Source: Myxococcales bacterium (GTDB taxonomy: Bacteria > Myxococcota_A > Polyangia > Polyangiales > Polyangiaceae). From it: DNA of 64,000 nucleotides. How positions within the stretch are numbered: the first letter of the stretch is position 1; every line of letters begins with the position of its first letter. The translations under genes and the position numbers were made by a program. This document shows positions 29,867 through 46,590 of the stretch, one piece after another. The DNA lies in assembly GCA_903642325.1 (NCBI GenBank), contig CAHJWM010000022.1, positions 1 through 64,000 on the forward strand, written 5' to 3'. The notes under the pieces were generated by a model. The model did not search any database. It had not been told where the DNA came from and saw nothing but the letters and a program-made list of their open reading frames with translations.

Positions 29867-30183
29867 TCGGACGGCGACAGCTTTGACGTCGGCCGAGACT
29901 GGTGGCCGTCAAGCCGTTCAATGCGCAGCCCATCATCGCGTCTTCGACGACGTGCTCGTCGAAGTGCAATGTCGCAATCGTTGAGTGACTCACGGCCCGG
30001 AACGTCGCTTCGGGTTTAGCGTGCGTGGTTACGGCGAAGCATCGCACCTAGCACGCGCGGCGGCACGGTGTGCCGCACTTCCGGGAAGGTCACGCTTGTT
30101 ATAGCGAAGGGAGCGCGCGCACAGCGCCGAGCTTGGACTCGAGTGCAACAAACTCCCTTAGATAACGCGTGTCGAGGCCCGCC

Positions 30184-30238
30184 GTCACGGTCAAGTTCCG
30201 TTATCGTCACTCTGACGTCACGCGTCCGCGTTTACATC
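30184..30238 (+). promoter_or_regulatory. Pho-box-like array (11-bp repeats) before the TonB-phosphate operon
   Basis: Units start every 11 bp: GTCACGGTCAA at 30184, GTTCCGTTATC at 30195, GTCACTCTGAC at 30206, GTCACGCGTCC at 30217, and a weaker GCGTTTACATC at 30228. PhoB recognises direct 11-bp repeats with a GTCAY-type core, so this is a likely PhoB site for the gene starting at 30472. It lies about 230 bp upstream of that start. Apart from this site, two leader hairpins and the protease remnant to its left, I see no gene in 29867-30471. Confidence 0.65.
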
Positions 30239-30471: not shown

Positions 30472-31701
30472 ATGGGCAGACTAAACAAACTAACGAGGCG
30501 CTCGATCGTTTCGGGCTGTGCGCTCGCCGGCGCATCGGTATTCGCACAAGGTGCCTTCATGAGAAGCGCACACGCCATCACCAATTCGGGAAGCTGCTCC
30601 GCGTTGCCGAACCCCGTATACATCTCTGGGTCCAGCGCAGTGAAGCCGGTTCTCCAGGGCCTCGCTCAGACCGTCAAGGCCACGACCACTCTCGTGTACT
30701 TCTCCAATGGGTCATGCACGGGCGTGCAGGCGGTCCTCGGTACCGCTCAGACGGCCACGACGACCGCCGTTTGGTGGGATACACCGACCGCGGACAACCC
30801 CACTGGCGAAACCAACTGTACGACGACCACGGCCCAGGCCGTTGACGTCGGCGTTTCTGACGTGTTCGCCACGACTTGTCCGGGGGTCACTCAAGACCTG
30901 GTATCGGCGGCGAATATCGGTGATTTCGATACTTTTTTCGCGCAAGTGATGGAGTTCGTGGTGCCCGTAGGCTCCGACCAAACGTCTATCAGCGCGGAGG
31001 CCGCATACCTCACCTTTGGCTTCGGAGCCGATGGCGCCACGACTTGGAACAATCCAACGCTTTACGCCGTTCGCAACAACACCTCGGGTACGCAGGCGAT
31101 GTTGGGCAAAGCCATCAAGCTCGATGCAAGCATTTGGAAGGGCGTCAATTCAGGATCTAGCGGCGGTGTCGTCACTGCAATAGGCACGCCGGCGGGCGAT
31201 CCCAAGAAGACGATCGGTATCTTGTCCTCGGGTGAAGCAGACCCGAACAGCGCGACGATCAAAAAGCTCGCTTTCCAGGGCTACGGACAGACGTGCGCCT
31301 TCTGGGCGGACTCGGGCGTGAGTCAGAAGGACAAAGTCTACGTCCGCGACGGGCATTACCCAGTTTGGGGACCGCTGCACGTTCTTGCCAAAGTCAACGC
31401 GGCCGGCGTGGCGACGGACGCCAAAGCCAAGGCATTGATCGACGTTTTCGCGGCCCAAGACAAGTCAGTGGTGGACGTGGAGATCAACGCGAACGTCGTG
31501 CCGCTTTGCGCCATGAATGTCTCGCGCACGAGCGAGGTTGGGCCGTTGATGTCGGTTCAGCCCACGGGTGCGTGTGGCTGCTACTTCGATTCGAAGCGCA
31601 AGACTGGCGGCGCGGGCGCCGATTGCACGGTGTGCACGACCAACGCGGACTGCACGGGCTCCGCCAAGAAGTGCAACTACGGCTACTGCGAGGTAAAGTG
31701 A
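30472..31701 (+). CDS. PstS-like secreted substrate-binding protein with Cys-rich tail
   Basis: The ATG at 30472 (409 residues) is preferred to one at 30454 because the purine-rich GAGGAGTGGAG lies just before it. The signal peptide has a twin-arginine-like start (LTRRSIVSG) and a cleavage site after SAHA at residue 35. The mature part resembles PstS-type binding proteins: it opens with VYISGSSAVKPVLQGLAQ, and the NNTSGTQAML loop stands where PstS has its phosphate-binding Ser-Gly-Thr. The last 45 residues hold eight cysteines (CGCYFDS to NYGYCEVK), an extra disulfide-rich module absent from PstS. It heads the Pho-box-linked TonB operon with no ABC permease beside it. Confidence 0.78.
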   Translation: MGRLNKLTRRSIVSGCALAGASVFAQGAFMRSAHAITNSGSCSALPNPVYISGSSAVKPVLQGLAQTVKATTTLVYFSNGSCTGVQAVLGTAQTATTTAVWWDTPTADNPTGETNCTTTTAQAVDVGVSDVFATTCPGVTQDLVSAANIGDFDTFFAQVMEFVVPVGSDQTSISAEAAYLTFGFGADGATTWNNPTLYAVRNNTSGTQAMLGKAIKLDASIWKGVNSGSSGGVVTAIGTPAGDPKKTIGILSSGEADPNSATIKKLAFQGYGQTCAFWADSGVSQKDKVYVRDGHYPVWGPLHVLAKVNAAGVATDAKAKALIDVFAAQDKSVVDVEINANVVPLCAMNVSRTSEVGPLMSVQPTGACGCYFDSKRKTGGAGADCTVCTTNADCTGSAKKCNYGYCEVK

Positions 31702-32156
31702 TGTCTGTCTTCAATTCAAAAAAGCTCGGTTTCTTGGCGGCAGGCCTTACCTTTCTGACGCTTGCCGCCACGCAAGGCTGCGGCGATGACGACAACCAGG
31801 TCGCGCCGACCGCGGGCACCGGCGGTGACATTGGAGAATCGGGTTCAGGCGGCCGTTCTGGCTCCGGCTCGGGCAACAAAGCTGGCGGCGGCGGCGACGC
31901 TGGCAGCGGCGAGCCGACACCGCCCGCCGACACCGCGGGAGCGGGCGGCGAGGCCGGCGAACCTGGCGCACCGGCAGGCGGTACGAGTGGCTCGGGGGGC
32001 TCGGGTGGCTCGGTATCCTGTGATGGCCCGAAGGGTTGTTACGCGTGCGCGCCCACGACGCCCACGCAGTTTGCCAATCACTGCGTCAGTGGTGGTTGCC
32101 CCGCGACCTTCGACAACAGCACTTTGACCCAGATTGCCAAGGTGGGAACTCTCTGA
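31701..32156 (+). CDS. Gly/Ser-rich lipoprotein with C-terminal cysteines
   Basis: A 151-residue lipoprotein whose ATG at 31701 overlaps the stop of the binding-protein gene (TGATG). The signal peptide ends in the lipobox ATQGC. Residues 30-105 are a flexible tether of Gly, Ser, Ala, Glu and Pro. The last 45 residues form a small domain with five cysteines (VSCDGPKGCYACAP and NHCVSGGCPATF). The matching Cys-rich tail of the preceding protein suggests the two could dock or form related disulfide folds (inference). No known family is recognised. Confidence 0.7.
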   Translation: MSVFNSKKLGFLAAGLTFLTLAATQGCGDDDNQVAPTAGTGGDIGESGSGGRSGSGSGNKAGGGGDAGSGEPTPPADTAGAGGEAGEPGAPAGGTSGSGGSGGSVSCDGPKGCYACAPTTPTQFANHCVSGGCPATFDNSTLTQIAKVGTL

Positions 32157-32189
32157 GTTTTCCCCGATCAACCTAGTTAGCCGGAAGAC

Positions 32190-32223
32190 TGCCGGGGTGT
32201 TCGATACCGAGGACGCCCCGGCA
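32190..32223 (+). other. strong intercistronic stem-loop
   Basis: TGCCGGGG (32190-32197) and CCCCGGCA (32216-32223) are exact complements, and five more pairs (two T-G) extend the stem inwards to the loop GATACCGA. It lies between the lipoprotein stop (32156) and the porin start (32258). There is no T run after it, so it more likely protects the upstream mRNA or attenuates the downstream part. Either would favour the binding protein over the membrane components. Confidence 0.6.
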
Positions 32224-32257
32224 TTCTCTCGCCCAGCATCAGTGATTCGGAGCATTC

Positions 32258-33781
32258 GTGAATAGGCATACTTCTGCGGTGTTTGCCGCCGCGCTCGTAG
32301 CGGCTCTGAGCAGACCCGCATCGGCGCAACCCGCGCCCTCACCATCGCCCGCAGCGCCAGAGCCGCCGGCTCCGGCTGCGCCCGTGGAGAGTGTCCCGCA
32401 AGCGGCCCCAGAGGCTCCTCCTGCCGCGGCGAACGCGGAGCTCGAAAAGCAACTCACGATGCAGCGCGCCGATCTGGACGAGCAGGACGCGCGGATTGCA
32501 GAGCTGGAGAAACAACTCAAGAGTTTTAACAAGCCCGCGCAGGCGAAGCCCGCAGTGGCAGCGCGCGAGACGAAGAGAGACGACGTGACGGCCAAGCCGG
32601 CCGCACCTGCGACGCTGGTCGATGACACACTCAAAGTGACGGGCTACGTTCAGGCGGAGTACGAGGGTCATCAAGACTCCGAAGACCAACTCGCGCCAGG
32701 CGGCGCGCCGTTGAACTTGAATCGCTTCGTGCTTCGCCGCGCGCGGCTCAAGCTGACGCGGGACTGGCGCTACGGCGCGATGCTGCTCGAGTTGGACGCC
32801 AACAGCGTTCGAGGCGCCGCGATCGGCGTTCAGCACGCCGAAGTATCGCTTGCGTATCGGAACGCTGACCAGACCCCTCTCGTGCAGTTGACGATGGGCC
32901 TGTTCGACAACCCCTTCGGCCGGGAAGTCTTGGAGTCGCCTCGGGAGCGGCCGTTCATGGAGCGTTCGTTCGCGTCACGCGAATTTTTCCCTTCGGAGCC
33001 CGACTTGGGTTTGCGCATCTCCGGGCAGGCGGCCTGGTTTCGGTATTCAGTGGCCGTGGTCAATGGCCAGCCACTCGGCGACCGCACCGGCTTCATCTTG
33101 CAAGATCCCAATTCACACAAGGACGTGCTCGGCCGCGTGGGAGTCGACGTGAGTTTGCCATCGGCGCTGCGCATCGTCGGCGGGGTATCGGTGCTGAACG
33201 GTGAAGGGTTTCATCCCGGCACCGACGCGACCAAAGGCACCCTCACTTGGCGAGACAATGTTTCTGAAGACAACTTGGTGCAGTTCCCAGAAGTCGTCGG
33301 CTTGCCCGGTACAGCGGGGAGCCCTTCACAAAACTTCACGCGTTGGCTGCTGGGCGCGGACGTGGGGGCGGAGCTCGTATCGAAGTTCGGCAAAACCCAT
33401 TTGTTCGCCGAGCTCAGCTTCGGCTCCAATATGGACCGCAACGTGTTCGTGGCCGACCCCACCACGAATGGCTTCGACGAACGCGAATTCGGCTATTACA
33501 TCGCACTCTATCATGAGTTCAAGCAGGGCCCGATCGCCGGTTTTCGGTATGACGCCTATAACCCCAATTCTGATTTTCTGGACTCGCGGCGCGGAACTTT
33601 GATCCCGACCACCGAGACGATCGACACTTACTCGCCTCTGCTTGGTTTTCAGGTGCCGCACCGGGCGCGCCTGGTCGCACAGTACGACATCATTCGCGAC
33701 GCTGAGGCGCGCAACACTGCGGGTGTGCCCGTAGATCGAAAGAACAACGTTTGGACCATTCGTCTTCAGGGAGAGCTGTGA
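32258..33781 (+). CDS. OprP/OprO-type phosphate-selective porin
   Basis: A 507-residue outer-membrane protein starting at the GTG at 32258. A signal peptide ends near SRPASAQ. A Pro/Ala linker and a coiled coil (about 63-95, LEKQLTMQRADLDEQDARIA) follow, which in this family mediates trimer or periplasmic contacts. From about residue 120 there are alternating beta strands (VTGYVQAEYEGHQ, NRFVLRRARLKLTRDW, VQLTMGLFDNPFGREVLESP), in the pattern of phosphate-selective porin O/P. It ends with a polar-terminal strand (NVWTIRLQGEL). In a Pho-linked operon, phosphate or polyphosphate passage is likely. Confidence 0.85.
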   Translation: MNRHTSAVFAAALVAALSRPASAQPAPSPSPAAPEPPAPAAPVESVPQAAPEAPPAAANAELEKQLTMQRADLDEQDARIAELEKQLKSFNKPAQAKPAVAARETKRDDVTAKPAAPATLVDDTLKVTGYVQAEYEGHQDSEDQLAPGGAPLNLNRFVLRRARLKLTRDWRYGAMLLELDANSVRGAAIGVQHAEVSLAYRNADQTPLVQLTMGLFDNPFGREVLESPRERPFMERSFASREFFPSEPDLGLRISGQAAWFRYSVAVVNGQPLGDRTGFILQDPNSHKDVLGRVGVDVSLPSALRIVGGVSVLNGEGFHPGTDATKGTLTWRDNVSEDNLVQFPEVVGLPGTAGSPSQNFTRWLLGADVGAELVSKFGKTHLFAELSFGSNMDRNVFVADPTTNGFDEREFGYYIALYHEFKQGPIAGFRYDAYNPNSDFLDSRRGTLIPTTETIDTYSPLLGFQVPHRARLVAQYDIIRDAEARNTAGVPVDRKNNVWTIRLQGEL

Positions 33782-34695
33782 TGCGCCACGCCTTTTTCTG
33801 TGCACTCTCCGCGTTATCGCTGACGCTCTCGGGCTGCGGTGATTCTTCGTCGGCCCACACGGGCTTGGCCGAGCCCTTGCGCGTGACCAACGGCACCTAC
33901 TTCGAGGGCGATTTTCCAGCGACGAAAACTACGAGCCCGCAAGTTGCCCAGATCAACATTCGCAACACCGAGTTCGCGGCCGGCACCGCGGGCAAAGGTA
34001 TTACGGGTTTGGCAGACTCCAAGTCACAGTCGGTCGCTCTCGGGCTTCAAGGGCTCAGTCATGGCTACTGGGTAGTTCCCGTCGGGGCACCAGATTTGAT
34101 GACCATTGGCACGTTCACTTGGTCTGCCAATTGCGATTTTTCGCGCGATATTCCCGTCGGGATGCACGACTTGGACGTCGCTGCCGCCGACGAAAGTGGC
34201 CATTTCGGGCCCCTCATGACGGCCAGCTTGAACATCCAGCCGTTCATTCCGGCAGGTCACGTCGTGGCATCGCTGTCCTGGGGTGTCGACGCGGATCTCG
34301 ATCTGCACCTCGTGGGGCCGAGCGGAAAAGAGCTCGATCCGAAGCATCCGAACAGCACGCAGCTGTTCGATGCGGGTGATGACAAGGGCATGCCCATGCC
34401 CGGCAACGGTTTGCTAGACCACGACTCGCTCGCCTCTTGCTACCCAGACGGGCTGCGTACGGAAAACGTGGTTTGGACCGACAATCCCGAAGAAGGCGGC
34501 TATTTGGTACGCGTCGACATGTTCAACGCATGCGGCAAACCGAGCGCGAGCTTCGTGTTCTCGCTGTACGTAGACGGCAAACGGGTGCTCGAAAAACACG
34601 GCCGGTTGCTGGACCTCAATGCCGACGGCGGAGGCCCGGGCTCAGGTCTCTTCGTCACCGACTTCAGCTGTAAAGGAACGGGCACATGCTCATAA
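33781..34695 (+). CDS. YfaP-like lipoprotein
   Basis: The ATG at 33781 overlaps the porin stop (TGATG); 304 residues. The lipobox is SLTLSGCGDS. The C-terminal half contains SWGVDADLDLHLVGPSGKEL and GGYLVRVDMFNACGKPSASF. This is the pattern of YfaP/DUF2135-type beta-sandwich domains, whose Trp-x-x-Asp-x-Asp-Leu-Asp-Leu motif may bind metal. The first half is beta-rich without a known signature. It is likely periplasmic or at the outer membrane, next to the porin. Its 3' end overlaps exbB by 10 bp. Confidence 0.7.
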   Translation: MRHAFFCALSALSLTLSGCGDSSSAHTGLAEPLRVTNGTYFEGDFPATKTTSPQVAQINIRNTEFAAGTAGKGITGLADSKSQSVALGLQGLSHGYWVVPVGAPDLMTIGTFTWSANCDFSRDIPVGMHDLDVAAADESGHFGPLMTASLNIQPFIPAGHVVASLSWGVDADLDLHLVGPSGKELDPKHPNSTQLFDAGDDKGMPMPGNGLLDHDSLASCYPDGLRTENVVWTDNPEEGGYLVRVDMFNACGKPSASFVFSLYVDGKRVLEKHGRLLDLNADGGGPGSGLFVTDFSCKGTGTCS

Positions 34696-35438
34696 CAAGT
34701 CTCGAAAAATTCTCACTGATGGGCGCGTCGTGGGTCCTTTACCTGCTGGTCGCGCTGTCCATGTTCTCCATCGGCATCATGTTCGAGCGCTGGATCTACT
34801 TCCGAAGCAATTCTTCGAAGAACGTCAGCGGCTTGGCCGATGCGCTGCTCAAATTCCTCAAAGCCGGCGACCGCCGTGGCGCAGAGAATTTGCTGAAAAA
34901 CGACAAGTCGCTCGAGGCCCAGGTGGTGTTGCCCGTATTGGGGTGGCTCGACGGCGGCCCGGATTCGGTTTCCGAGGCGCTCGACGCTTCGTTGATGCGC
35001 AAACGGCCCGAGCTCGAGCGCGGGCTCACCTGGCTCGGCACGCTCGGCAACAACGCGCCCTTCCTCGGCCTGTTCGGCACCGTGATCGGCGTCATCCAAG
35101 CCTTTCATATGCTTGGCAGTAGCGGCGCCGGTGGCAACCAAGCCGCCATGGGCAACGTGATCGTAGCCATCTCGGAAGCACTGATCGCGACCGGGGTCGG
35201 CTTGATCGTCGCGCTGCCTGCGGTCGTCGGCTTCAACTTGACGCAGAAGCGCGTCAGCACGGTGGAAAACAACATTGCCCTGATAGGTAAGGAGCTGCTC
35301 GCCTTCCTCAAGGCCGACGCCAAGCTGATCGCCGAATTCCGCGCGCTCTCGGAAGAACCGCCAGTGAGCGAATCGGCTGCTGATTTGGTGGGTCGGGACG
35401 AGCACGTCTCCGCAACCGAACAACCGGAACCGACCTGA
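34686..35438 (+). CDS. exbB: ExbB/TolQ/MotA-type proton channel protein
   Basis: A 250-residue inner-membrane protein. The first helix (about 11-34, SWVLYLLVALSMFSIGIMFE) is followed by a cytoplasmic region. The hallmark of the family (LTWLGTLGNNAPFLGLFGTV then IGVIQAFHMLG) and the final helix segment VIVAISEALIATGVGLIVAL follow. With ExbD it forms the proton-driven motor that energises TonB. The dedicated copy between an OprP-type porin and a TonB-dependent receptor points to a substrate-specific TonB complex. It overlaps the previous gene by 10 bp and exbD starts 12 bp after it. Confidence 0.92.
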   Translation: MLITSLEKFSLMGASWVLYLLVALSMFSIGIMFERWIYFRSNSSKNVSGLADALLKFLKAGDRRGAENLLKNDKSLEAQVVLPVLGWLDGGPDSVSEALDASLMRKRPELERGLTWLGTLGNNAPFLGLFGTVIGVIQAFHMLGSSGAGGNQAAMGNVIVAISEALIATGVGLIVALPAVVGFNLTQKRVSTVENNIALIGKELLAFLKADAKLIAEFRALSEEPPVSESAADLVGRDEHVSATEQPEPT

Positions 35439-35450
35439 AAGGATCAACCC

Positions 35451-35867
35451 ATGGCTGGAACGATGAGCTCAGGCGGGGGCCGGCGAGCGCCGATCTCCGG
35501 GATCAACGTCACCCCGATGGTTGACGTGATGCTCGTGTTGCTCGTGATCATGATGGTGTCGGCGCAGTACATCGTGTCTCAGAGCCTCAAGGTGGAGCTG
35601 CCCAAAGCTGCCAGCTCGACCGATTCCGTCTCTTCCGTGGCCGCGGTCACACTGACTAAAGACGGTAAGACTTATTACAATCAGAAGCCGGTCACGGAAG
35701 GGGATCTGGTCAATGACTTACGCACGGCTTTGGCCGGCAACAAAGACCTCAATCTGATCGTAACCGCGGATAAAGAGGTGCAGCACGGCAGCGTGGTCCA
35801 CGTCATCGATCTGGCCAAGGTCGAGGGCATTACGAAGTTCGCGATCAACGTCGAGATAGCGAACTGA
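35451..35867 (+). CDS. exbD: ExbD/TolR-type protein
   Basis: A 138-residue protein with a short cytoplasmic tail, the ISGINVTPMVDVMLVLLVIM segment (its Asp is the proton-carrying residue conserved in ExbD/TolR), and a periplasmic domain with LTKDGKTYYNQKPV and VTADKEVQHGSVVHVIDL. It completes the ExbB-ExbD motor. The start ATG at 35451 is preceded by AAAGGATCAACCC, a good ribosome-binding site. The tonB gene starts 3 bp after its stop. Confidence 0.93.
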   Translation: MAGTMSSGGGRRAPISGINVTPMVDVMLVLLVIMMVSAQYIVSQSLKVELPKAASSTDSVSSVAAVTLTKDGKTYYNQKPVTEGDLVNDLRTALAGNKDLNLIVTADKEVQHGSVVHVIDLAKVEGITKFAINVEIAN

Positions 35868-35870
35868 GAC

Positions 35871-36605
35871 ATGCGCTGGGCTAAAGTCGGCTACGTCGCG
35901 GGAGCGGTCTTGAGCGTGGCGCTCCACGTCGCCGCGTTCGGTGGCCTCAGCGTGCTGAAGAAGGCCGTCCCGGAAACTCAGCACGTCGCCGTGATCATGT
36001 CTTCTGCGAAGAAGAAGCCAAAGCCGAAGCCGCCTGAGCCCCCGAAGCCGATCGAAGCCCCGAAAGAGATGTTGCAACGCCCGCTCGCCCCGCCCAAAGC
36101 AGCGCCGCCGGTTGCCCCACCGCCACCCGATCCCATCGCCGCCGCGCATCCGGCGCTCGCCGCCATGCCTGATTTCGGCATTTCATTGTCTGGAAATGGC
36201 GTCGCCGGCCCCGGCGGTATCGCGGTTCCCATGGGGCAGCCGCGGCCCGTCTCGGACGCCGTGGCCCACAAAGAAAGAACTTTCGGCAGCGCCGCCGAGC
36301 GGCCTGCGGCGGCCGCTGACGATTGCGCAGAAGAGCTCGTGAAAGCCAAGCCGCAAGGCTTCGTTCAGCCGACCTACACGGACGACGCACGCTCCGCCGG
36401 CATCGAGGGCCGGGTCCGCGTGCAAGTCACGATCGACGCTTCTGGCGCCGTCACCGGCGCGCAAGTCGTGTCCGGTCTGGGGCACGGTTTGGATGAGTCG
36501 GCGATCGCAGCGGCCAAGCGCATGAGCTTCAACGCGGCGACGCGCTGCGGCAAAGCCGTCCAATCCAGCTTCGTAGTCTCGATGCGCTTCGTACTTGGAG
36601 AGTAA
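35871..36605 (+). CDS. tonB: TonB energy transducer
   Basis: A 244-residue protein with one N-terminal helix (about 6-25, GYVAGAVLSVALHVAAFGGL). A Lys/Pro-rich spacer (KKKPKPKPPEPPKPIEAPKE) spans the periplasm. The C-terminal TonB domain runs from FVQPTYTDDARSAGIEGRVR to the end, with the conserved Tyr-Pro-type entry replaced by PTYTDDAR. It transmits proton-motive force to an outer-membrane receptor, most likely the product of the next gene. Its C-domain is clearly related to the extra TonB-like domain at the N-terminus of that receptor. Confidence 0.92.
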   Translation: MRWAKVGYVAGAVLSVALHVAAFGGLSVLKKAVPETQHVAVIMSSAKKKPKPKPPEPPKPIEAPKEMLQRPLAPPKAAPPVAPPPPDPIAAAHPALAAMPDFGISLSGNGVAGPGGIAVPMGQPRPVSDAVAHKERTFGSAAERPAAAADDCAEELVKAKPQGFVQPTYTDDARSAGIEGRVRVQVTIDASGAVTGAQVVSGLGHGLDESAIAAAKRMSFNAATRCGKAVQSSFVVSMRFVLGE

Positions 36606-36606
36606 G

Positions 36607-39258
36607 GTGGTGAAGAAGGTACTCGGGGCGGCACTGCTGCTCGCCTCACTCTGCGCGCCGAGAGCGGTGCTGGCGCAGGCAAACTCGGCAGAGACGCAAG
36701 CTCATCAGCCAAAGCTGACCAAGCTGCCCAGGCTGGTTCACTTCGAAGAAGCGCCTTATCCGGAAACGGAGAAATCGGCCGGAAAAACCGCGTCGGTCGT
36801 TTTGCAAATCGCGATTGACGACAAGGGTAGAGTGGCGGACGCGGTCGTGCAGCAATCGGCCGGCCCCGCCTTCGATCAAGCAGCTCTGGATGCGGTCAAG
36901 AAATTCAGCTTTGACCCGGCGGAGATCGACAACCGCCCGGCGCCGGTGAAAATCACTTACCGCTACGATTTCGTGTTCACGGTCGAGGCCCCGACGCCGG
37001 TCATCAACTACGACGGTTACATCAAGAATCGCTTCAGCAAGCAACCCATCGCCGGCGTCAAGGTCTCGATTGACGGGCTCGGCGACGCGACCACTGACGA
37101 GCTCGGTCATTTCGAGTTCAAGGAAGTGCCGCTCGGTAAGCACATCATCACCATCAGCGGTGCAAAGCTGACCACCGTCACCACCGAGGAAGAGCTCGAA
37201 AAGGGCAAAAAATTATCGGTCAAGTACGCACTCGAGCCGCAGGAAGACGTGCCGGCTGGCGAAGAGTCCGATCTCGAGATTGTGGTCGTTGCGCCCAAGA
37301 TTCAAAAGGAAGTGGTCTCCACCGAAATCAAGACCGAGGAAGGGCGCCGCGTTCCCGGCACACAAGGGGACACGCTCAAAGTCGTACAGAACCTGCCCGG
37401 CGTGGCCCGCGCCTCGTTCGGCTCGGGCCAGCTCGTCGTCTGGGGCGCGGCGCCCCAAGACACACGCATTTACGTGGACGGGATCCACATCCCGCTCCTC
37501 TATCACGGCGGCGGGTTGCGCTCGGTATTCGCGGGTGATCTCGTGCGCGCGATCAATTTGGCGCCCGGTGGCTACGGGTCGGAGTACGGCCGCGGTCTCG
37601 GTGGCCTGGTTACGATCGACACCCGCGCCCTTCGGACCACGGGTGTGCATGGCTTCGTCGCCGCCGACGTCATCGATTCGGCGGCCATGGTGGAAGCTCC
37701 CGTGTCTAGCTCGACGCGCTTCGCAATTGCGGCGCGCAAGAGCTATCTGGATCGTTCACTGTCGCTCGTGACGAACAAGGACGTCGGGGATTTCGTCCCG
37801 ATTCCCGACTACTACGACGCGCAAATCAAGCTCAGTCACGACATTGGTCATAACGAAAGCGTCGAGCTTTTGGCTTTGACCTCCCGTGATGCGCTCACCC
37901 GCACTTTGACGAATCAGGATCCAGCGCAGGACAAGAGCGACTACACGCTCACCTCCTTCAGCCGCGTGGGTCTCTCCTACAAGCGCCAGCTGGACGATGG
38001 ATCGAGCGTTTTGCTCACGCCCTGGTTAGGCGTTGATCACACCAAATCCCAAGAATCTTTCGGAGGGACGCCCACCCAGTTGGATTCGAAGAGCACGGTA
38101 TTCGGTTTCCGGTCGGCCTGGCGCGGTCGCCTATCGGATCACATCGTGACGACCGTTGGCTTGGACGTCGAAGGCAGCCGGTCCGCGCTGAATCGCCGCG
38201 GCTCGATCACACTCCCCGCGCGCGAGGGCGACTATGCGGTGTTTGGCCAACCGCCGGGCGGTCAGGTCAACGGTGACACCTGGGATACGACGATCCTGTC
38301 CGTCGCGCCTTACGCGCAAACCGACTTCGCGTTCTTCGGCGACCGGTTGCACGTCGTGCCCGGCTTGCGCATCGAGCCCTTCGTCACCACCGCCAGCCAT
38401 CGCTTGCCGACGCGCCCTGATTCGCCGGGCATCGGTGGCGTCACCCACGAAACGAGCGCGCTCGACCCGCGCCTCTCCGCCTCTTATCAAATGCTGCCGA
38501 GGCTCGGTTTCAAAGCGGCGTTCGGGTATTATCATCAGTCGCCACAGCCCGCGGACTTGTCGGCCGTGTTCGGTAATCCGCAGCTCGATATCGAGCATGC
38601 CTATCAGCTTTTAGGGGGTGCCAATGTCAAGCTCAGCGAGCATGTATCCCTAGAAGAGGTCGTGTTTTACACGAAGTCTTCGAATCTGGTCACGCGTAGT
38701 GATTCGAGCACCCCGCTCTTGGCTGAAGCGTTGGTGCAAAGCGGAGAAGGCCGCGCGTACGGTACTCAGATCTTGCTCCGGCACGAGCTGACGGCGGGCT
38801 TCTTCGGCTGGATAAGCTACACGCTCATGCGCAGCGAACGCAAAGACCATCCTGGCCTCGACTGGCGGCTCTTCGACTTCGATCAAACGCACGTTGCTAC
38901 CGTGGTCGCTTCGTACGAGCTCGGGCGCGGCTTCGAGCTCGGCGCGCGTTTCCGCTACGCCACGGGTTTCCCACGCACCCCCGTGACCCATGCATTCTAC
39001 AGTGCCCGTCGCGACTTGTACGAGCCGAGTTTCGGCTCACAGAACTCGCAACGAATACCGGCTTTCGTGCAGGCCGACGCCCGCATTGCCAAACGCTTCA
39101 ACGGGGCGTGGTGGAAGGCCGAAGTGTACCTGGACGTACAGAACGTTACCGATCGCGATAACCCGGAAGAAGTCGTGTACGACTACAAGTACGGCAAACG
39201 CGCCTACATTACCGGTTTACCTACTCTCCCAGTATTCGGCGCGAGGTTCGAATGGTGA
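36607..39258 (+). CDS. TonB-dependent receptor with its own TonB C-terminal-like domain
   Basis: The GTG at 36607 is chosen (883 residues). A TTG at 36595 would precede it, but GGAG at 36598 sits well as the ribosome-binding site. After a signal peptide (LASLCAPRAVLAQ) there is, unusually, a TonB C-terminal-like domain at about 40-123 (APYPETEKSAGKTASVVLQI). A carboxypeptidase-regulatory-like beta domain follows at about 134-211, then the plug (VVVAPKI to GYGSEYGRGLGGLVTIDTRA) and a C-terminal barrel ending in the aromatic strand PVFGARFEW. The substrate is not readable from sequence; the operon suggests phosphate or a phosphorylated compound. Confidence 0.9.
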   Translation: MVKKVLGAALLLASLCAPRAVLAQANSAETQAHQPKLTKLPRLVHFEEAPYPETEKSAGKTASVVLQIAIDDKGRVADAVVQQSAGPAFDQAALDAVKKFSFDPAEIDNRPAPVKITYRYDFVFTVEAPTPVINYDGYIKNRFSKQPIAGVKVSIDGLGDATTDELGHFEFKEVPLGKHIITISGAKLTTVTTEEELEKGKKLSVKYALEPQEDVPAGEESDLEIVVVAPKIQKEVVSTEIKTEEGRRVPGTQGDTLKVVQNLPGVARASFGSGQLVVWGAAPQDTRIYVDGIHIPLLYHGGGLRSVFAGDLVRAINLAPGGYGSEYGRGLGGLVTIDTRALRTTGVHGFVAADVIDSAAMVEAPVSSSTRFAIAARKSYLDRSLSLVTNKDVGDFVPIPDYYDAQIKLSHDIGHNESVELLALTSRDALTRTLTNQDPAQDKSDYTLTSFSRVGLSYKRQLDDGSSVLLTPWLGVDHTKSQESFGGTPTQLDSKSTVFGFRSAWRGRLSDHIVTTVGLDVEGSRSALNRRGSITLPAREGDYAVFGQPPGGQVNGDTWDTTILSVAPYAQTDFAFFGDRLHVVPGLRIEPFVTTASHRLPTRPDSPGIGGVTHETSALDPRLSASYQMLPRLGFKAAFGYYHQSPQPADLSAVFGNPQLDIEHAYQLLGGANVKLSEHVSLEEVVFYTKSSNLVTRSDSSTPLLAEALVQSGEGRAYGTQILLRHELTAGFFGWISYTLMRSERKDHPGLDWRLFDFDQTHVATVVASYELGRGFELGARFRYATGFPRTPVTHAFYSARRDLYEPSFGSQNSQRIPAFVQADARIAKRFNGAWWKAEVYLDVQNVTDRDNPEEVVYDYKYGKRAYITGLPTLPVFGARFEW

Positions 39259-40355
39259 GTCGACGCAAAGCGCTATCCCTCGCGGGGCTGTTGGCTTCGG
39301 CGGTCGCCTGCACGCCCGAGTTTACCGATCGCTCGTCAGCGGTCACGGGAGCGCGGGTTTTGGCGATCGGGTCGAGCCCGGCCGAGGCGCTGCCCGGAAG
39401 TGACGTAACTTACAAAATCCTCGTCGTCGATGCGAATGGGCTCCTGAAATCGCCGAACGTGAGCTGGTCTTATTGTACGCAGCCCAAGCCAACCAACGAG
39501 CTCAACGACGTGGCGACGGCATGCTTCGAGAACAGCGCGCTCTCGCTGCCGCTCGGCTTTGGCGTCACCCCCAAGGGCACGCTGCCCATCAATGGCTGCG
39601 CGCAATTCGGCCCTGATGTCCCCCAACCAGCCTCTAGCCCGAGCTCGAATTCGGGCATGGGCGCGAGCTCTAGCGGCAGCGCGATCCATCAAACCCAGGG
39701 CCGACCGACGGATCCGGACTCTACCGATGGCTATTACCAGCCCGTGATCTTGAGGGTGACCGCTGGCGCTGACCGGATCCCGACTCTCGGCGAGACGCGC
39801 ATCACGTGCGGATTGGCCGGCAGTACCGGTGAGCAATTCGAAGCCTACAACCGCGCCACCAAGCGCAACGAAAATCCTCAGCTGCTCGGGGTCACGATCA
39901 ATAATATGCAGGACTCGGCGCTTGCCACGCTCGACGCCGGTGAACCCCTGCAGGTGGCCGCATCGGCGCACCTCAGTCTGCGCGCCTCGTGGCCGGCTTG
40001 CCCGACCAAGCCCCAGTGTGGCGACGGTATTTGTAGCCCGGGCGAGGCCGTCCAAGACTGTCCAGACGACTGCACGACGCCGAAAGGCTGCGGCGGTTCG
40101 GAGCCGTTCGCCTATCTCGATCCGGAAAGCCACGAGCTGGTCGACCGCCACGAGTCTATTCGCGTCTCTTGGTTCGCCACGCGCGGGTCGTTCGATACGG
40201 ACCACACGGGTCGCCAGGAAGGCGAGTTCACGGAAACCTCCAGCGACGACACTTGGAGCGCGCCGAGCGAGGCCGGGCCCGCGTTCATATGGGTCGTCTT
40301 GAGGGACGACCGCGGCGGCGTCGATTGGCAGAGCTTTCGGGTCGATGTTCGTTGA
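39252..40355 (+). CDS. cysteine-containing lipoprotein, last gene of the TonB operon
   Basis: The ATG at 39252 overlaps the end of the receptor gene by 7 bp (367 residues). The signal peptide ends in the lipobox ASAVAC. A CGDGICSPGEAVQDCPDDC segment near residue 260 is a known disulfide-rich module found in myxobacterial surface proteins. The remainder is a beta-rich domain with possible calcium- or ligand-facing Asp/Asn residues, ending in VVLRDDRGGVDWQSFRVD. The role is unknown; as the operon's last lipoprotein it may sit on the receptor at the outer membrane (inference). Confidence 0.75.
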   Translation: MVSRRKALSLAGLLASAVACTPEFTDRSSAVTGARVLAIGSSPAEALPGSDVTYKILVVDANGLLKSPNVSWSYCTQPKPTNELNDVATACFENSALSLPLGFGVTPKGTLPINGCAQFGPDVPQPASSPSSNSGMGASSSGSAIHQTQGRPTDPDSTDGYYQPVILRVTAGADRIPTLGETRITCGLAGSTGEQFEAYNRATKRNENPQLLGVTINNMQDSALATLDAGEPLQVAASAHLSLRASWPACPTKPQCGDGICSPGEAVQDCPDDCTTPKGCGGSEPFAYLDPESHELVDRHESIRVSWFATRGSFDTDHTGRQEGEFTETSSDDTWSAPSEAGPAFIWVVLRDDRGGVDWQSFRVDVR

Positions 40356-40446
40356 ACCCATGAGCGAATCCCTTGATCGGGGGCTCGAGGACCGGCTTCG
40401 AGGCGGAGGATCATCGCGGCCGTCAGTGCAGAGCTGCTACTGACTC

Positions 40447-40474
40447 GTCACCTGGCAGTCACATCAATCGGTTA
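40447..40474 (+). promoter_or_regulatory. Pho-box-like repeat before an orphan phoB
   Basis: GTCACCTGGCA at 40447 and GTCACATCAAT at 40458 are 11-bp direct repeats, with a weak third unit (CGGTTA) at 40469. The phoB ATG at 40490 is only 15 bp after the repeats, so either the transcript has almost no leader or the site acts differently from a normal activator. A GAGGA ribosome-binding site at about 40480 lies in between. Confidence 0.4.
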
Positions 40475-40489: not shown

Positions 40490-41197
40490 ATGGCGCGAAT
40501 TCTAGTGATCGAGGACGAGGCCGATATTCGGCAAGTGCTCGACTACAACTTGAAGAGCGCGGGTCACGAGGTAGTGGAGGCGGCCCGGGGTGCGGACGGC
40601 CTACGTTTGATCCGAGAACGCGAGCCCGACTTGGTGTTGCTCGACCTGATGCTGCCCGACATGCCAGGCGCCGACGTGTGCCGCTCCATAAAAGACAATC
40701 CAGCGACGAAAACCTTACCAGTCGTGATGCTCACCGCGCGCGGCGAAGAGATCGACCGCGTCGTGGGCTTCGAGATCGGCGCGGACGATTACATCACCAA
40801 GCCCTTCAGCGTGCGTGAGCTGGTGCTGCGAATTCGCGCGGTCTTGCGGCGCCGTGAGCTTCCGGTCAGTGACGGCCCTAGCATCGAATTCGGCAACTTG
40901 CGGCTCGACCGCGCCGCGCACCGGGCGTGGGTGGAAGGCGAAGAAGTCGAGCTCACTGCGCTCGAATTCAAGCTCCTCGTGACTTTATACGAGCGTCGAA
41001 ATCGAGTGCAGTCGCGAGCCGCTCTGCTCGATGAAGTTTGGGGTCTCGACACCAAGATCTCGACTCGTACCGTGGATGCGCACGTGAAACGCCTGCGCGA
41101 GAAAATGGGTGCGGCTCGCGACTACATCGAGACCGTGCGCGGCGTCGGGTACCGGTTTGCCGACGTGCCCATGACCGAAGCGCTCGGCGCGGGCTAG
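40490..41197 (+). CDS. phoB: PhoB-like response regulator (first copy)
   Basis: A 235-residue OmpR/PhoB-family regulator. The receiver has E9/D10, phospho-acceptor D52 in LLDLMLPDMPG, Thr82 and K104 (YITKPFS). The winged-helix DNA-binding domain has ELTALEFKLLVTLYERRNRV and VDAHVKRLREKMGAARDYIE. The start is the ATG at 40490 right before VIEDEAD. It has no adjacent kinase. The second PhoB (42776) has the same length and is highly similar, so both may answer to the PhoR at 43474. A short Pho-box-like repeat precedes it, hinting at autoregulation. Confidence 0.88.
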   Translation: MARILVIEDEADIRQVLDYNLKSAGHEVVEAARGADGLRLIREREPDLVLLDLMLPDMPGADVCRSIKDNPATKTLPVVMLTARGEEIDRVVGFEIGADDYITKPFSVRELVLRIRAVLRRRELPVSDGPSIEFGNLRLDRAAHRAWVEGEEVELTALEFKLLVTLYERRNRVQSRAALLDEVWGLDTKISTRTVDAHVKRLREKMGAARDYIETVRGVGYRFADVPMTEALGAG

Positions 41198-41297: not shown

Positions 41298-42524
41298 ATG
41301 GACCTGACGCGCTTCACGATCCAAGACTTTGGGTTGCTCGCGGTGTTGATCCTGACGAGCTTCGCGCTGGCGATGACCCTTGCCACGCACCTGTCCGTGC
41401 TCCGGGTGCATGCCCGCGGGCGGGCGCCGAAGCGGGGGCCGACGCCGCCCGTCTCGGTATTGAAGCCGCTCTGCGGAGTGGACGAGGGGCTGTACGAAAA
41501 CCTGGTCTCGCTGGCGCGCCAAGAATATCCCGACTTCGAGCTCGTGCTTGGCGCCGAAGATCCACGGGACCCGGCGCTCAGCGTGGCGGGCGCGCTGCGG
41601 CGTGATTTTCCGAATTTGAAGCTGCAGATCGTCTTTGGCATGCCGGCAGTGGGCATGAATCCGAAAGTCAGCAACCTGACGGCTTTGAGCCAGCGTGCAC
41701 ACCACGACGTGCAGCTGATCTCGGACTCGAACGTTCGCCCGGACCCTGATTATTTGCGCACGCTGGTGGCAGAGCTCGCAGATCCGGGCGTGGGGCTCGT
41801 ATCGAGCGTGCTCTCGGGCACGGGCGGCAAAAGCCTGGGAGCGCGACTCGAAAATCTGCATCTGGCGACGTACGTTGCACGGGCGGTATGCGGTGCGGAG
41901 GTGCTCGCCGCGCACCCATGCGTCATCGGCAAGTCGATGTTGTTCCGCAAGTCCGACCTGACCCGAGTCGGTGGTTTCGAGCTCGTGCGCGATGTGTTGG
42001 CTGAAGACTACGTGCTAGGCCAAGCGTTTCGCCGCGCCGGCTTGCGCGTGGCGCTCTCCGCGCATGTCCTTCGAACCGTCAATGTGCGGCGCAGCGTTGG
42101 GCAGTTCGCGGCGCGCCACCTGCGCTGGGCGCAAATGCGCCGCCGTTTGGCCGCGCGCCTCTACTGGGGCGAGCCCCTGCTCTATCCAGGCCCACTTTTA
42201 ACCGCGCTGCTCGTGCTGCTTGCTCTCGGTGCGGAGCTACCTTTCGTTAGCTCGAACCGCCTAGCGGAGCTCGCCGTGCTCGCTCTGATTGCCAAATACG
42301 CGTCCGATGCTTGGTTAATTCGGGTCATCAACGGCACATTTCCCCGCGCGTCCGAGCTGCCACTGCTCTTGCTCAAAGACATTGGGATGTGGGGAGTTTG
42401 GTTGGTGGGCGCGCTCAAGCGCCGCGTCATGTGGCGCGGCCACGCCATGCTCATCGGGGAGGGATCCCGCCTCTACCCCGCACGCCAGCCCACCCCGCCC
42501 GAGCCGGCCGTGGCCCGCGCCTAG
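41298..42524 (+). CDS. GT21 ceramide-glucosyltransferase-like glycosyltransferase
   Basis: A 408-residue membrane glycosyltransferase; the ATG at 41298 follows GCGGAG. Helix 1 is at about 11-35. The catalytic domain has VSVLKPLCG, GAED (residue 88), DSN (143-145), AEDYVLG (about 236-242) and the RxxRW box in ARHLRWAQMRR (residues 273-277). This is the D-D-D-(Q/R)xxRW set of GT21 ceramide glucosyltransferases and related HpnI-type enzymes. C-terminal helices follow. In phosphate-starved bacteria, glycolipids can replace phospholipids, and Caulobacter makes glycosphingolipids under this stress (known). The place between two phoB genes supports that role here, but the acceptor lipid is not provable from sequence. 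Confidence 0.8.
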   Translation: MDLTRFTIQDFGLLAVLILTSFALAMTLATHLSVLRVHARGRAPKRGPTPPVSVLKPLCGVDEGLYENLVSLARQEYPDFELVLGAEDPRDPALSVAGALRRDFPNLKLQIVFGMPAVGMNPKVSNLTALSQRAHHDVQLISDSNVRPDPDYLRTLVAELADPGVGLVSSVLSGTGGKSLGARLENLHLATYVARAVCGAEVLAAHPCVIGKSMLFRKSDLTRVGGFELVRDVLAEDYVLGQAFRRAGLRVALSAHVLRTVNVRRSVGQFAARHLRWAQMRRRLAARLYWGEPLLYPGPLLTALLVLLALGAELPFVSSNRLAELAVLALIAKYASDAWLIRVINGTFPRASELPLLLLKDIGMWGVWLVGALKRRVMWRGHAMLIGEGSRLYPARQPTPPEPAVARA

Positions 42525-42775: not shown

Positions 42776-43477
42776 ATGACACGCATTCTGATCGTCGAAG
42801 ACGAACCCGATCTGCAGCAGGTGCTGGAGTACAACCTCCGGCAGGCCGGTCACGAAGTATTCGTGACCAAGCTCGGTCGGGAGGGCTTGCGCATCGCGCG
42901 CGAGCAAAAACCCGAGGTCGTGCTTTTGGACCTGATGCTGCCCGATATTCCGGGCACGGACGTCTGTAAGCAGCTCAAAGAGGCGCCTACGACCAAGGGC
43001 ATCAACGTGATCATGCTCACGGCACGTGGCGAAGAGATCGATCGTGTGGTCGGTTTCGAGCTCGGCGCCGACGACTACGTGACCAAGCCCTTCAGTGTGC
43101 GGGAGCTTCTTCTGCGTATTCAGGCGATCACGCGCCGTGGCAAGGCCGAGCCGAAAGACCTAGAGGCTACGGTCGAGTTCGGAAAGCTCAAGATCGACCG
43201 AGACGCGCACCGTGTGTGGGTCGAGAGCTTGGAAATCGAGCTCACGGCCCTCGAGTTCAAGTTGCTGGTTACGCTCTACGATCGCAAAAATCGCGTGCAG
43301 ACGCGCAGCACGTTGTTGGACGACGTGTGGGGTATACAAGCCGACATCACCACTCGCACCGTCGACACCCACGTCAAGCGTTTGCGCGAGAAGCTCGAGG
43401 CGGCGCGTGACTACGTCGAGACGGTTCGCGGCGTTGGCTATCGCTTCGTCGGCACCCCCGACGAGGCGACGGCGTGA
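42776..43477 (+). CDS. phoB: PhoB response regulator (second copy, paired with phoR)
   Basis: A 233-residue regulator starting at the ATG at 42776 just before the VEDEPD triad. It has D52 (LLDLMLPDIPG) and K104 (YVTKPFS), and the same winged-helix as the first copy (ELTALEFKLLVTLYDRKNRV, VDTHVKRLREKLEAARDYVE). The main differences are in the linker and in a few surface residues. Its stop overlaps the phoR start (GTGA at 43474-43477), the classic phoBR arrangement, so this copy is the direct partner of PhoR. The 251 bp upstream carry no gene; I see no convincing Pho box there. Confidence 0.92.
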   Translation: MTRILIVEDEPDLQQVLEYNLRQAGHEVFVTKLGREGLRIAREQKPEVVLLDLMLPDIPGTDVCKQLKEAPTTKGINVIMLTARGEEIDRVVGFELGADDYVTKPFSVRELLLRIQAITRRGKAEPKDLEATVEFGKLKIDRDAHRVWVESLEIELTALEFKLLVTLYDRKNRVQTRSTLLDDVWGIQADITTRTVDTHVKRLREKLEAARDYVETVRGVGYRFVGTPDEATA

Positions 43478-45252
43478 AGCTCGGCATACGCGCCAAGCTT
43501 TTTCTGACCTCGCTCGGAATCATCCTCGTGTCTGTCGTCGTTGCTTACGGCTACTCGAGTGATCGTCTGGAACGTGAGCTGACTGATCGCGTTCGCGCGG
43601 AGCTCATCGTCCGCGCGAAGCTGGTCGCGCTTGGTGCCGAGTCTTCGTACGTGCTTTGGGAAGACAGCGCCCGCTGGCACGCGTTGGCGCGTGATTTGGG
43701 GCGGCGCGCGAACGCCGAGGTGACCTTGCTGCGCAAGGACGGCACCGTGCTCGGCGATTCGCGCGAACACGACGAGCCGGTGAGCTGGAGCGACCGCGCT
43801 GAGGTCCGCGGCGCGTTGGCGCTTTCCGGCGCCGTGCCTGGGTATGCCTCGGTCGTCGATGGCCATATGCTGGTCGTCGCGGTGCCGTTCGCGCGCGCAG
43901 ATGAAGTCGCAGGCGTCGCACGCGTGGCGTTGCCGCTGACGGAAATCGACGTTGCGCGCGCCGAGCTCAATCGGACCCTCACGCTCGCTACGGCCATCGC
44001 CCTGGCCGCTGCCATCATCGTGTCTATCTTGGCCGCCGAGCTTGCCTCGCGTACCGCGCGCTCGCTCACGGAGGTCGCAAGGCTCATGGCCGGCGGGGAC
44101 TTGTCGGCACGCGCCCGCCAAACGGGGGACGATGAATTCGGCGAGCTCGGTCGCGCGCTCGATCAACTGGCCAAGAATCTGTCGCGCACACTCGGTGATC
44201 TGAGTGAGGAGCGGGACCGCTTGGGCGGCATCCTCGCCAGCATGCAAGAGGGCGTTCTGCTGCTCGATCGCTCGGGCCACATTTTCGTGTTGAACCCATC
44301 GCTTCGCGAAATGCTGCTCGTCGGCCCCGACTCGGTTGGCAAGACGGTGCTCGGCGTGGTGCGTCACGCCGAGCTGAAGGAGCTTTTGGATCTGGGTCGC
44401 CGGTCCCTGGAGCCGGTGACGAGAGAGATCGATTTCGGCACGATTCAGCCGCGGCGTCTGCAGGTCCGGGCGGCCCAATTGCCCGGGGATCAAGGCGGGC
44501 TTTTGGCGGTGTTCGTGGACGTAACGGAAGTGCGCCGCCTCGAGTCCTTACGCCGCGAGTTCGTGGCCAACGTCTCCCACGAGCTCAGGACGCCGGTCAC
44601 GGCGGTGCGCTCTGCCGCCGAGACTTTGCAGAATGCCGCTTCCGACGATCCGACCGCGACCAAGGCCTTTCTCGGAATCATCGAGCGCAACGCGGAACGC
44701 CTCCACGACCTGGTCGAAGATCTTCTGGACTTGTCACGCATCGAGTCGCGCGGCCTGAAGCTTGCCATGGAACCGTTGTCGGTCGACGCCGTTTACGATC
44801 AAGTGCTCAGCTTGTTCGCCGAGCGCGCCGCAAAACGTGGCACCGCACTCCGAAACGATGCCGCCGAAGAGCTACAGCGAGTCATCGCCGACCGTCGGGC
44901 GCTCGAGCACGTGCTCACCAACCTGGTCGATAACGCCGTCAAATATTGTCCTTCGGGTACGACCATTCGTCTGCGTGCGGTCGCGCACGAGCAAGACGTC
45001 GAGCTGTCGGTCGAGGATAACGGTCCGGGTATCGAGCAGCGCCACTTGCCGCGCTTGTTCGAACGCTTTTACCGTGTCGATGCCGGCCGTTCGCGTGATG
45101 TTGGTGGCACCGGTCTCGGCCTGTCGATCGTAAAGCACTTGGTCGAAGCCATGGACGGCAGCGTGCGGGTCGAGAGCACGCCCGGGGTCGGCACCAAGTT
45201 CAGCGTGGTGCTCAAGCGCGGACTGCCACAAGAAAAGAGGGAAGTCGCCTAG
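43474..45252 (+). CDS. phoR: PhoR-like phosphate sensor histidine kinase
   Basis: A 592-residue kinase translated from a GTG inside the phoB stop. Transmembrane helix 1 is at about 8-24 and a periplasmic sensor of about 130 residues follows (including EDSARWHALARDLGRRANAE). Helix 2 is at about 167-189, then a HAMP linker (SLTEVARLMAGGDLSARARQ), a PAS domain (SMQEGVLLLDRSGHIFVLN), HisKA with His369 in VSHELRTPVTAV, and HATPase_c (NLVDNAVKYCP, ENGPGI-type DNGPGIEQRH, GTGLGLSIVKHL). The long periplasmic part differs from the short one in E. coli PhoR. It controls PhoB in response to phosphate, normally via Pst. Confidence 0.92.
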   Translation: MKLGIRAKLFLTSLGIILVSVVVAYGYSSDRLERELTDRVRAELIVRAKLVALGAESSYVLWEDSARWHALARDLGRRANAEVTLLRKDGTVLGDSREHDEPVSWSDRAEVRGALALSGAVPGYASVVDGHMLVVAVPFARADEVAGVARVALPLTEIDVARAELNRTLTLATAIALAAAIIVSILAAELASRTARSLTEVARLMAGGDLSARARQTGDDEFGELGRALDQLAKNLSRTLGDLSEERDRLGGILASMQEGVLLLDRSGHIFVLNPSLREMLLVGPDSVGKTVLGVVRHAELKELLDLGRRSLEPVTREIDFGTIQPRRLQVRAAQLPGDQGGLLAVFVDVTEVRRLESLRREFVANVSHELRTPVTAVRSAAETLQNAASDDPTATKAFLGIIERNAERLHDLVEDLLDLSRIESRGLKLAMEPLSVDAVYDQVLSLFAERAAKRGTALRNDAAEELQRVIADRRALEHVLTNLVDNAVKYCPSGTTIRLRAVAHEQDVELSVEDNGPGIEQRHLPRLFERFYRVDAGRSRDVGGTGLGLSIVKHLVEAMDGSVRVESTPGVGTKFSVVLKRGLPQEKREVA

Positions 45253-45474: not shown

Positions 45475-46557
45475 ATGATTTCGGATACACGCATCGCAAC
45501 GACGTTCTTCGCGCTCATCGGCTTGGCTGCGTTGGCGACTGGTTGCGGAAAAAAAGACGTGGCTCCCGCCGACATGGCTGCGGCGGCCTCCGCAGCTCCC
45601 GCGTCCGCAACGGGCACCGTGACGCTGCAGGGCTCTGGGGCGAGCTTCCCGGCACCACTTTACTCTCGTTGGTTTCGCGAGTTCGGGGACAAGAACAAGG
45701 ACATCCGCGTCAACTATCAGTCCACGGGCAGCGGGGCGGGCATCAAGGCATTCATCGAAGGTCAGACTGATTTTGGCGCGAGCGACGCCGCCATGACCGA
45801 TGACGAGATGAAGCAAGCCAAAGACAACGTCATTTTATTGCCGATGACCGCCGGCAACATCGTGCTCGCCTACAATCTCGAAGGCGTCACGGACCTCAAG
45901 CTCTCACGCGACACGTACGCCGGAATTTTTCTCGGCACGATCAAGAAGTGGAACGACCCGAAGATCGTGGCCAGCAATCCGGGGACAAAGCTACCGAAGC
46001 TCGATATCTCGGTCGTCCACCGCTCTGATGGCAGCGGGACGACGTTCGTATTCACGCAGCATCTCGCGGCAATTAGCGATAAGTGGAAGTCGGGCCCGGG
46101 GGTTGGCAAATCCGTGGAGTGGCCGGTGGGCGTGGGCGGCGCTAAGAACGATGGTGTGGCGGCGCAAATTCATCAGACCCCGGGAGCCGTCGGTTACATC
46201 GAGTATGCGTTCGCCGCGACAACCAAGCAGCCAATGGCTCTGCTCGAGAACAAGGCCGGCAAATTCGTGGCGGCGTCATTGAAGAGCTCCGCCACGGCTT
46301 TGGCTGCCGTCGAGTTGCCCGCTGACATGCGGGCATGGGTTACGGACCCTGGGGGCGACGAGTCCTATCCGATCGTCACCTACACCTGGATCCTTGCCCA
46401 CAAGAAGTACGACGACAAGGCCAAGTCGGCAGCGCTGAAAAGCGTGCTCAAGTGGAGTCTCACTGATGGTCAGAAGCTGTCGGAGAGCTTGTTCTACGTC
46501 CCGCTGCCGGAAACGGTTGCGAGCAATGTGCTGAAGGCCGTCGACAGCATCGAGTGA
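45475..46557 (+). CDS. pstS: phosphate-binding lipoprotein PstS (first pst operon)
   Basis: A 360-residue binding protein with a lipoprotein signal (lipobox ALATGC). The PstS signatures are in place: VTLQGSGASFPAPLYSRWF near the N-terminus, VNYQSTGSGAGIKAFIEGQ, DFGASDAAM, and the phosphate-ligand loop VVHRSDGSGTTFVFTQHL. A purine-rich GACGGAAGG precedes the ATG. It delivers phosphate to PstC/PstA. The repeat pattern upstream (about 45408-45451) is too weak to call a Pho box. Downstream genes are in the standard order pstC, pstA, pstB. Confidence 0.95.
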   Translation: MISDTRIATTFFALIGLAALATGCGKKDVAPADMAAAASAAPASATGTVTLQGSGASFPAPLYSRWFREFGDKNKDIRVNYQSTGSGAGIKAFIEGQTDFGASDAAMTDDEMKQAKDNVILLPMTAGNIVLAYNLEGVTDLKLSRDTYAGIFLGTIKKWNDPKIVASNPGTKLPKLDISVVHRSDGSGTTFVFTQHLAAISDKWKSGPGVGKSVEWPVGVGGAKNDGVAAQIHQTPGAVGYIEYAFAATTKQPMALLENKAGKFVAASLKSSATALAAVELPADMRAWVTDPGGDESYPIVTYTWILAHKKYDDKAKSAALKSVLKWSLTDGQKLSESLFYVPLPETVASNVLKAVDSIE

Positions 46558-46590
46558 GCCCCGTGCTCTCGCACCGCGCCTGGAGGCAAC

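Follow-up and report, generated by a model that had tools for sequence, protein, structure and literature searches.

Between positions 30472 and 40355 of the window, the whole 64-kb stretch of DNA that was analysed, nine intact open reading frames lie on the same forward strand, with overlaps of 1-11 bases or gaps of 3-101 bases between them. The first gene (30472-31701) encodes a predicted PstS-fold binding protein of 409 amino acids with a Tat/Sec-like signal and a Cys-rich C-terminal tail, assigned below to pocket class P. It is followed by genes for a Cys-motif lipoprotein whose lipobox was spotted by eye (31701-32156), an OprP/OprO-type porin (32258-33781), a lipoprotein that has no family match and serves as the marker of these operons (33781-34695), ExbB (34686-35438), ExbD (35451-35867), TonB (35871-36605), a TonB-dependent receptor (36595-39258) and a terminal lipoprotein without a family match (39252-40355). 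Pfam cut-offs are passed by ExbB (PF01618, 3.8e-27), ExbD (PF02472, 1.3e-27), TonB (TonB_C, PF03544, 2.5e-18) and the receptor barrel (PF00593, 3e-19), and the receptor plug domain with 22.9 bits falls 1 bit below its cut-off. Besides PF00593, the receptor is matched by PF07715, PF03544 and PF13715, with NF038079 at the N-terminus, and ahead of the plug it carries extra N-terminal TonB_C and CarboxypepD_reg domains, as in the model of the myxochelin receptor MxcH. The porin match (Porin_O_P, PF07396, 7e-5) is partial, with 22.6 bits against a cut-off of 20.9. Reading frames and Pfam matches hence bear out the adjacent nine-gene operon of porin, ExbB-ExbD-TonB motor, receptor and lipoproteins described in the first-pass annotation.

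Family searches were less informative for the three lipoproteins of the operon, since no useful Pfam family was obtained for any of them and none matched the SusD family. The earlier label of the 33781-34695 lipoprotein as YfaP-like could not be retained, as the Pfam search of the window protein gave no match and only 4 of 45 relatives showed a weak match to PPC/Big_13. The terminal lipoprotein was modelled by AlphaFold with a pLDDT of 90.1 as containing Ig-like beta domains, and its structural matches were generic Ig-like only. No PstC, PstA or PstB is present among the nine genes, the pstSCAB genes constituting a separate unit downstream, and the operon contains no inner-membrane transporter of its own. 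A mobile element was rejected as the nature of the operon because it holds no such genes, and an iron-siderophore system was likewise rejected, given a binding protein of the oxyanion kind and no iron context seen.

Upstream of the operon, a matrix scan located a Pho-box-like site of four units at 11-bp spacing (30182-30221, forward strand; CCGTCACGGTC AAGTTCCGTTA TCGTCACTCTG ACGTCAC), in agreement with the first-pass annotation. With the fixed E. coli-type matrix used, which scores four units 11 bp apart, this site is the second-best locus in the 64-kb window, and the four best distinct three-unit loci are found before pstS2 (61310-61366), phoB (40434), the nine-gene operon (30182) and phoB2 (42722). 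Whole-window shuffles equal its four-unit score about 1 time in 10, and the site alone is thus only moderately rare, so that the case for a Pho box rests on its conservation upstream of operons of the same pocket class and on the contrast between classes presented below. Downstream on the forward strand lie a further Pho-box-like site (40434-40462, matrix scan), phoB (40490-41197; TIGR02154 as best model, 260 bits, below the cut-off of 296), a second phoB-like response regulator gene (42782-43477; TIGR02154 as best model, 248 bits), a phoR-like kinase gene (43474-45252; PnpS 375 bits and PhoR 298 bits, both below cut-off) and pstSCAB, encoding the inner-membrane phosphate ABC transporter (45475-49401). 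The phoB, phoR and pstSCAB genes noticed earlier are therefore present, with PstS, PstC, PstA and PstB passing equivalog cut-offs and the PhoB and PhoR models ranking top or near-top below theirs. Between the two phoB-like genes, at 41301-42524, is a gene for a glycosyltransferase of family 21 (ceramide-glucosyltransferase-like), perhaps concerned with phospholipid replacement under phosphate starvation. A second pst operon (61299-63503, forward strand) comprises pstS2 and pstC2, with pstA and pstB continuing past the window end. No other tandem Pho-box-like array in the window is as strong as the one that precedes this operon, and a second Porin_O_P porin gene (59404-61146, reverse strand), transcribed divergently from it, has its own weaker Pho-box-like site at 61159.

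The binding protein is, judged from its predicted structure, a protein with the PBP type II fold of PstS that is distant from it in sequence. Among curated models its sole match is TIGR02136 (PstS family; E 5e-7), at 29 bits well below the cut-off of 206.6, PBP_like_2 is matched by 21 of 65 homologues, and a search of the PDB by sequence alone with this protein returned nothing, as did a search of plasmid records. The AlphaFold model, for which 65 family members were used, reached a pLDDT of 94.6, and its comparison with known structures (VIA) gave a best Z of 26.3 (4ecf), with E. coli PstS at Z 21.0 (2abh). All the best structural matches are phosphate-binding proteins (Z about 17-26), followed by molybdate- and sulfate-binding proteins (Z about 15-16). 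A profile of the whole family aligned only weakly with the window's own PstS, whereas a profile restricted to class P placed Ser-Asp on Ser-Asp and Arg-x3-Ser-Gly-Thr on the same motif. The description of this protein as PstS-like accordingly stands, with the fold given by the AlphaFold model and structure matches and with a complete PstS phosphate signature. A Cys-rich tail is found in all members. In 44 orphan cases the binding domain comes after the domain of the Cys lipoprotein, and 19 of these have both fused in a single open frame. Orphan PstS-like lipoproteins bearing this domain include those of loci L037, L052, L054, L056, L059 and L060; in L037, L054 and L060 the following gene encodes a Ser/Thr protein kinase (Pfam), which may constitute a sensing pair.

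Relatives of the binding protein were found in 27 of 59 near genomes and in 31 of 284 genomes of the phylum. The 33781-34695 lipoprotein occurs in 22 of the 59 near relatives, each of which also has the binding protein, and in 63 of 184 genomes of the order. Using this lipoprotein as an anchor, 100 distinct operons were collected from Myxococcota, including Minicystis, Polyangium and Nannocystis. Complete operons with the order binding protein, porin, lipoprotein, ExbB, ExbD, TonB, receptor and lipoprotein account for 52 of them, 19 have a short form lacking the motor, and most of the remaining ones are cut by contig ends or contain an extra TonB-like domain. The co-occurrence of the PstS-like protein with the receptor, whose search across genomes had been proposed at the outset, was thus found as a near-invariant shared operon order, and a chance gene cluster was rejected because this order is kept in 100 loci. 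In a pattern scan of named genomes that used an alignment of seven rows as query, the best 80 relatives were, by title, all Myxococcota-compatible or unclassified bacteria. Most operon receptors share 41-64% identity with the window receptor, as compared to at most 38% for other near-full-length receptors of the same genomes, the exception being the divergent receptor of the class T operon L076 (36%). In receptors of the short operons the aligned part begins after the N-terminal TonB_C domain, which they lack in alignments; with neither a motor gene nor this domain, these operons presumably borrow another motor. The nine-gene operon of these soil myxobacteria is a genuine system that is conserved and seems not to have been described before.

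When the binding proteins of the family were aligned, the residues that contact phosphate in PstS, as judged from the alignment, turned out not to be universal. Class P, to which the window copy belongs, retains the equivalents of PstS Ser38, Asp56, Arg135 and Ser139-Gly140-Thr141 in 25 of 25 members, with Ser in loop 2, Asp (PstS Asp56) in loop 3 and Arg-x3-Ser-Gly-Thr in loop 4. In class N the loop-2 Ser is replaced by Ala, the Asp is absent and Ser-Ala or Ser-Phe is found (32 of 32), and in class T, typical of the short operon, the Asp is also absent and the loops are Lys-Ser-Thr-like (20 of 20). Asp and Ser-Gly-Thr are part of the class definition, but the Ser/Ala contrast in loop 2 is not. 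In PstS, Asp56 accepts a proton from phosphate, and fully ionised sulfate and molybdate have none to give; loss of this Asp hence fits the binding of a different oxyanion. On the receptor tree, the pocket-class label changes 11 times compared with a shuffled mean of 48, which argues that binding-protein class and receptor evolved together. About 20 of the 100 operons belong to further pocket classes, one of which (NGDTQ ... GIGATYL ... TASTT) occurs in short operons, many of them from one genus (L168, L170, L175, L176, L179, L181, L183, L188 and L213).

These pocket classes, which were set before the sulfate and molybdate neighbours were noticed and under a matching rule slightly widened afterwards, differ in their regulatory and genomic context. 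An upstream Pho box (p 0.05 or better with the E. coli-type matrix) is present in 15 of 23 class P operons as compared to 5 of 72 others (Fisher 4e-8), with a mean z of 2.6 for class P and 0.06 for class N, and class P proteins located outside operons, taken as a negative control, have such a box in only 3 of 37 cases. Genes for PhoB, PhoR or Pst lie near 8 of 25 class P operons versus 2 of 75 others (p 2e-4), in varied arrangements (upstream, downstream, same strand or divergent) and with PhoB-like matches of less than 200 bits beside some short operons left out of the PhoB count. The sulfate ABC transporter Sbp-CysT-CysW-CysA is encoded near 7 of 33 class N operons versus 0 of 67 others (p 3e-4), and Sbp, CysT and CysW exceed curated NCBIfam cut-offs. 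Molybdenum genes accompany 6 of 20 class T operons versus 0 of 80 others, and molybdenum neighbours of this type were not found near any class P or N operon. They include ModBC beside the class T operon L076 and a ModF-like gene beside that of the window's own genome, and in five loci a gene for an HTH-PBP_like (PF12727) regulator lies directly upstream of the class T operon. Neighbours weakly matching PstA and PstB were rejected as phosphate transporter genes, as retesting identified them as ABC genes for sulfate or molybdate. After a lone class T protein (L156/L064) come an amino-acid-kinase protein and then ModABC; this kinase-family protein (L064, 10346-11143) may be a molybdenum storage protein (MoSto-like).

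The genome from which the window comes holds all three classes, with class P in the window, class T on contig C23 (L038) and class N at contig ends. One part of the class N operon lies at the end of contig C87 and the other at the end of C52 (L039, L157); these would join into one operon with the sulfate transporter directly downstream. Among cultured organisms, Minicystis rosea DSM 24000, with a complete genome (CP016211.1), has one operon each of classes P, N and T (L077, L118 and L113) and could serve as a natural test organism. Matching contexts are seen in a minority of operons only, and one class N operon, L121, clearly breaks the rule by lying divergently beside phoB-phoR. Because the classes are phylogenetically clustered, the p values for class and context overstate independence: the tree provides only 3-4 independent contrasts, and for the Pho box 2.8 of 3 agree with class P, too few for a sign test to reach 0.05.

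Taken together, the sequence and model evidence favours, with a probability of about 65%, the interpretation that Myxococcota have a modular family of TonB-powered systems for oxyanion uptake through the outer membrane and that this operon is its phosphate member. The initial proposal of Pho-linked, TonB-powered phosphate uptake suits the window copy, with its predicted PstS fold, pocket residues, Pho box and Pho/Pst neighbours, and it is too narrow for the family, in which classes N and T lack the Asp and occur beside sulfate or molybdate genes. For the window copy, the likeliest ligand is phosphate. With somewhat less assurance, though still on balance, we favour a single TonB-powered chassis which interchangeable PstS-fold proteins would adapt to phosphate, sulfate or molybdate in inorganic form, each version controlled by the corresponding starvation regulon. 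This would be the first case in which import of inorganic oxyanions through the outer membrane is energised. When phosphate is scarce, PhoB would bind the Pho box ahead of the operon, whose genes would then be expressed. From the families involved, the receptor and its lipoproteins may capture the oxyanion at the surface and the dedicated ExbB-ExbD-TonB motor may open the receptor, which would pass the oxyanion to the PstS-fold protein. This protein, probably tethered to a membrane by the Cys lipoprotein as the domain fusions in orphan loci suggest, would bind the passing phosphate through its predicted pocket and hand it to the PstSCAB transporter encoded just downstream for entry into the cytoplasm. 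The porin could provide a passive route for the same ion at higher concentration, and the sister operons, with the same chassis and an altered pocket, would work with CysPTWA for sulfate or ModABC for molybdate.

Against the favoured interpretation, small oxyanions normally diffuse through porins, and since a porin is also encoded in the operon, an energised gate needs a reason. In a first alternative, on the whole unlikely, the same chassis imports larger oxyanion-bearing ligands such as phosphodiesters, sulfate esters or sulfonates, or molybdate-catechol complexes, with the binding protein catching the released ion. TonB transport is mostly used for large or scarce ligands, and the known Pi-induced TonB systems (PusCD) co-localise with organic-P enzymes (PMC8115612). 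However, the conserved operon genes include no phosphatase, phosphodiesterase or sulfatase, the fold and pocket of the binding protein are of the small-oxyanion kind and the neighbours are ABC systems for inorganic ions. Organophosphates are less favoured than the oxyanion itself. The PstS-like protein might alternatively be a secreted carrier that scavenges the oxyanion outside the cell, the receptor taking up the ligand or the loaded protein in the manner of a hemophore. We consider this improbable, because the operons contain no secretion genes and the 19 orphan loci in which the lipoprotein domain and the binding protein are fused favour tethering, even though all members have the Cys-rich tail and there are parallels in the reported delivery of molybdate by secreted ModA with an outer-membrane protein in P. 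aeruginosa (cited in PMC11734730) and in Caulobacter ElpS, a secreted lipoprotein whose gene adjoins a receptor gene (PMC2996285).

A role in surface sensing, with receptor and binding protein reporting the oxyanion level and importing nothing, is brought to mind by the lone binding-protein lipoproteins that adjoin Ser/Thr kinases in relatives; it appears very improbable, as the operons lack sigma/anti-sigma and kinase genes, and both the porin and the ABC importers close by suggest uptake. Scarcely credible is a purely phosphate-specific TonB system with coincidental sulfate and molybdate neighbourhoods in relatives. The window copy and the class P context agree with it, but it leaves aside the sulfate genes near 7 of 33 versus 0 of 67 operons, the restriction of molybdenum genes to class T and the pocket changes that fit other oxyanions. 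According to textbook teaching, passage of inorganic phosphate, sulfate and molybdate through the outer membrane is passive, a view that a conserved TonB-powered oxyanion route with ligand-matched binding proteins, if true, would alter. It would also account for the three parallel sets that some myxobacteria maintain, supply many orphan receptors, which form a large clade, with ligands and add new proteins that bind oxyanions and could be used in sensing or recovery, with the pocket-class code yielding clear ligand predictions.

In the PstSCAB system with the OprP/OprO porin, the outer-membrane step is passive and the inner-membrane step ATP-driven. The nine-gene operon shares with it the binding-protein fold and the porin family, both of which the window also encodes separately (45475-49401 and 59404-63503), but the PstSCAB-OprP/OprO route has no TonB-dependent step and the binding protein of the nine-gene operon is without ABC genes. 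A literature search with little coverage of subscription journals brought up no TonB system that serves an inorganic oxyanion, in line with the earlier impression that no standard phosphate system is built alike, and in a 2024 review of TonB substrates the words sulfate and molybdate are absent and phosphate is mentioned in passing only (PMC11658791). TonB-dependent uptake itself is known; what appears undescribed is the form that it takes in the nine-gene operon. The Flavobacterium PusCD systems, Pi-induced SusCD-like complexes and TonB-dependent transporters for organic P, resemble it in combining a TonB-dependent receptor with lipoproteins under phosphate-starvation induction, one cluster adjoining phoBR, but have a SusD partner and organic-P enzymes, with no PstS-fold protein, OprP porin, dedicated ExbBD-TonB or sulfate or molybdate versions described (PMC8115612). 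In the P. aeruginosa PUMA3 region (phdA-pdtB-exbB2D2-tonB4), ExbBD-TonB genes are similarly PhoB-dependent, but they accompany genes for signalling and two-partner secretion, a barrel is missing from VreA and no binding protein or porin is named in the operon (PMC4971064). Secreted ModA of P. aeruginosa is reported to work with the outer-membrane protein IcmP (cited in PMC11734730), an oxyanion-binding protein thus cooperating with an outer-membrane protein as proposed here, but ModA is T6SS-secreted and no operon of the Myxococcota kind is reported. Caulobacter ElpS, a phosphate-starvation lipoprotein for which a role in phosphate uptake was suggested and whose gene adjoins that of the TonB-dependent receptor CC0171, belongs to a T2SS locus that differs from the Myxococcota operon in having no such motor or porin (PMC2996285).
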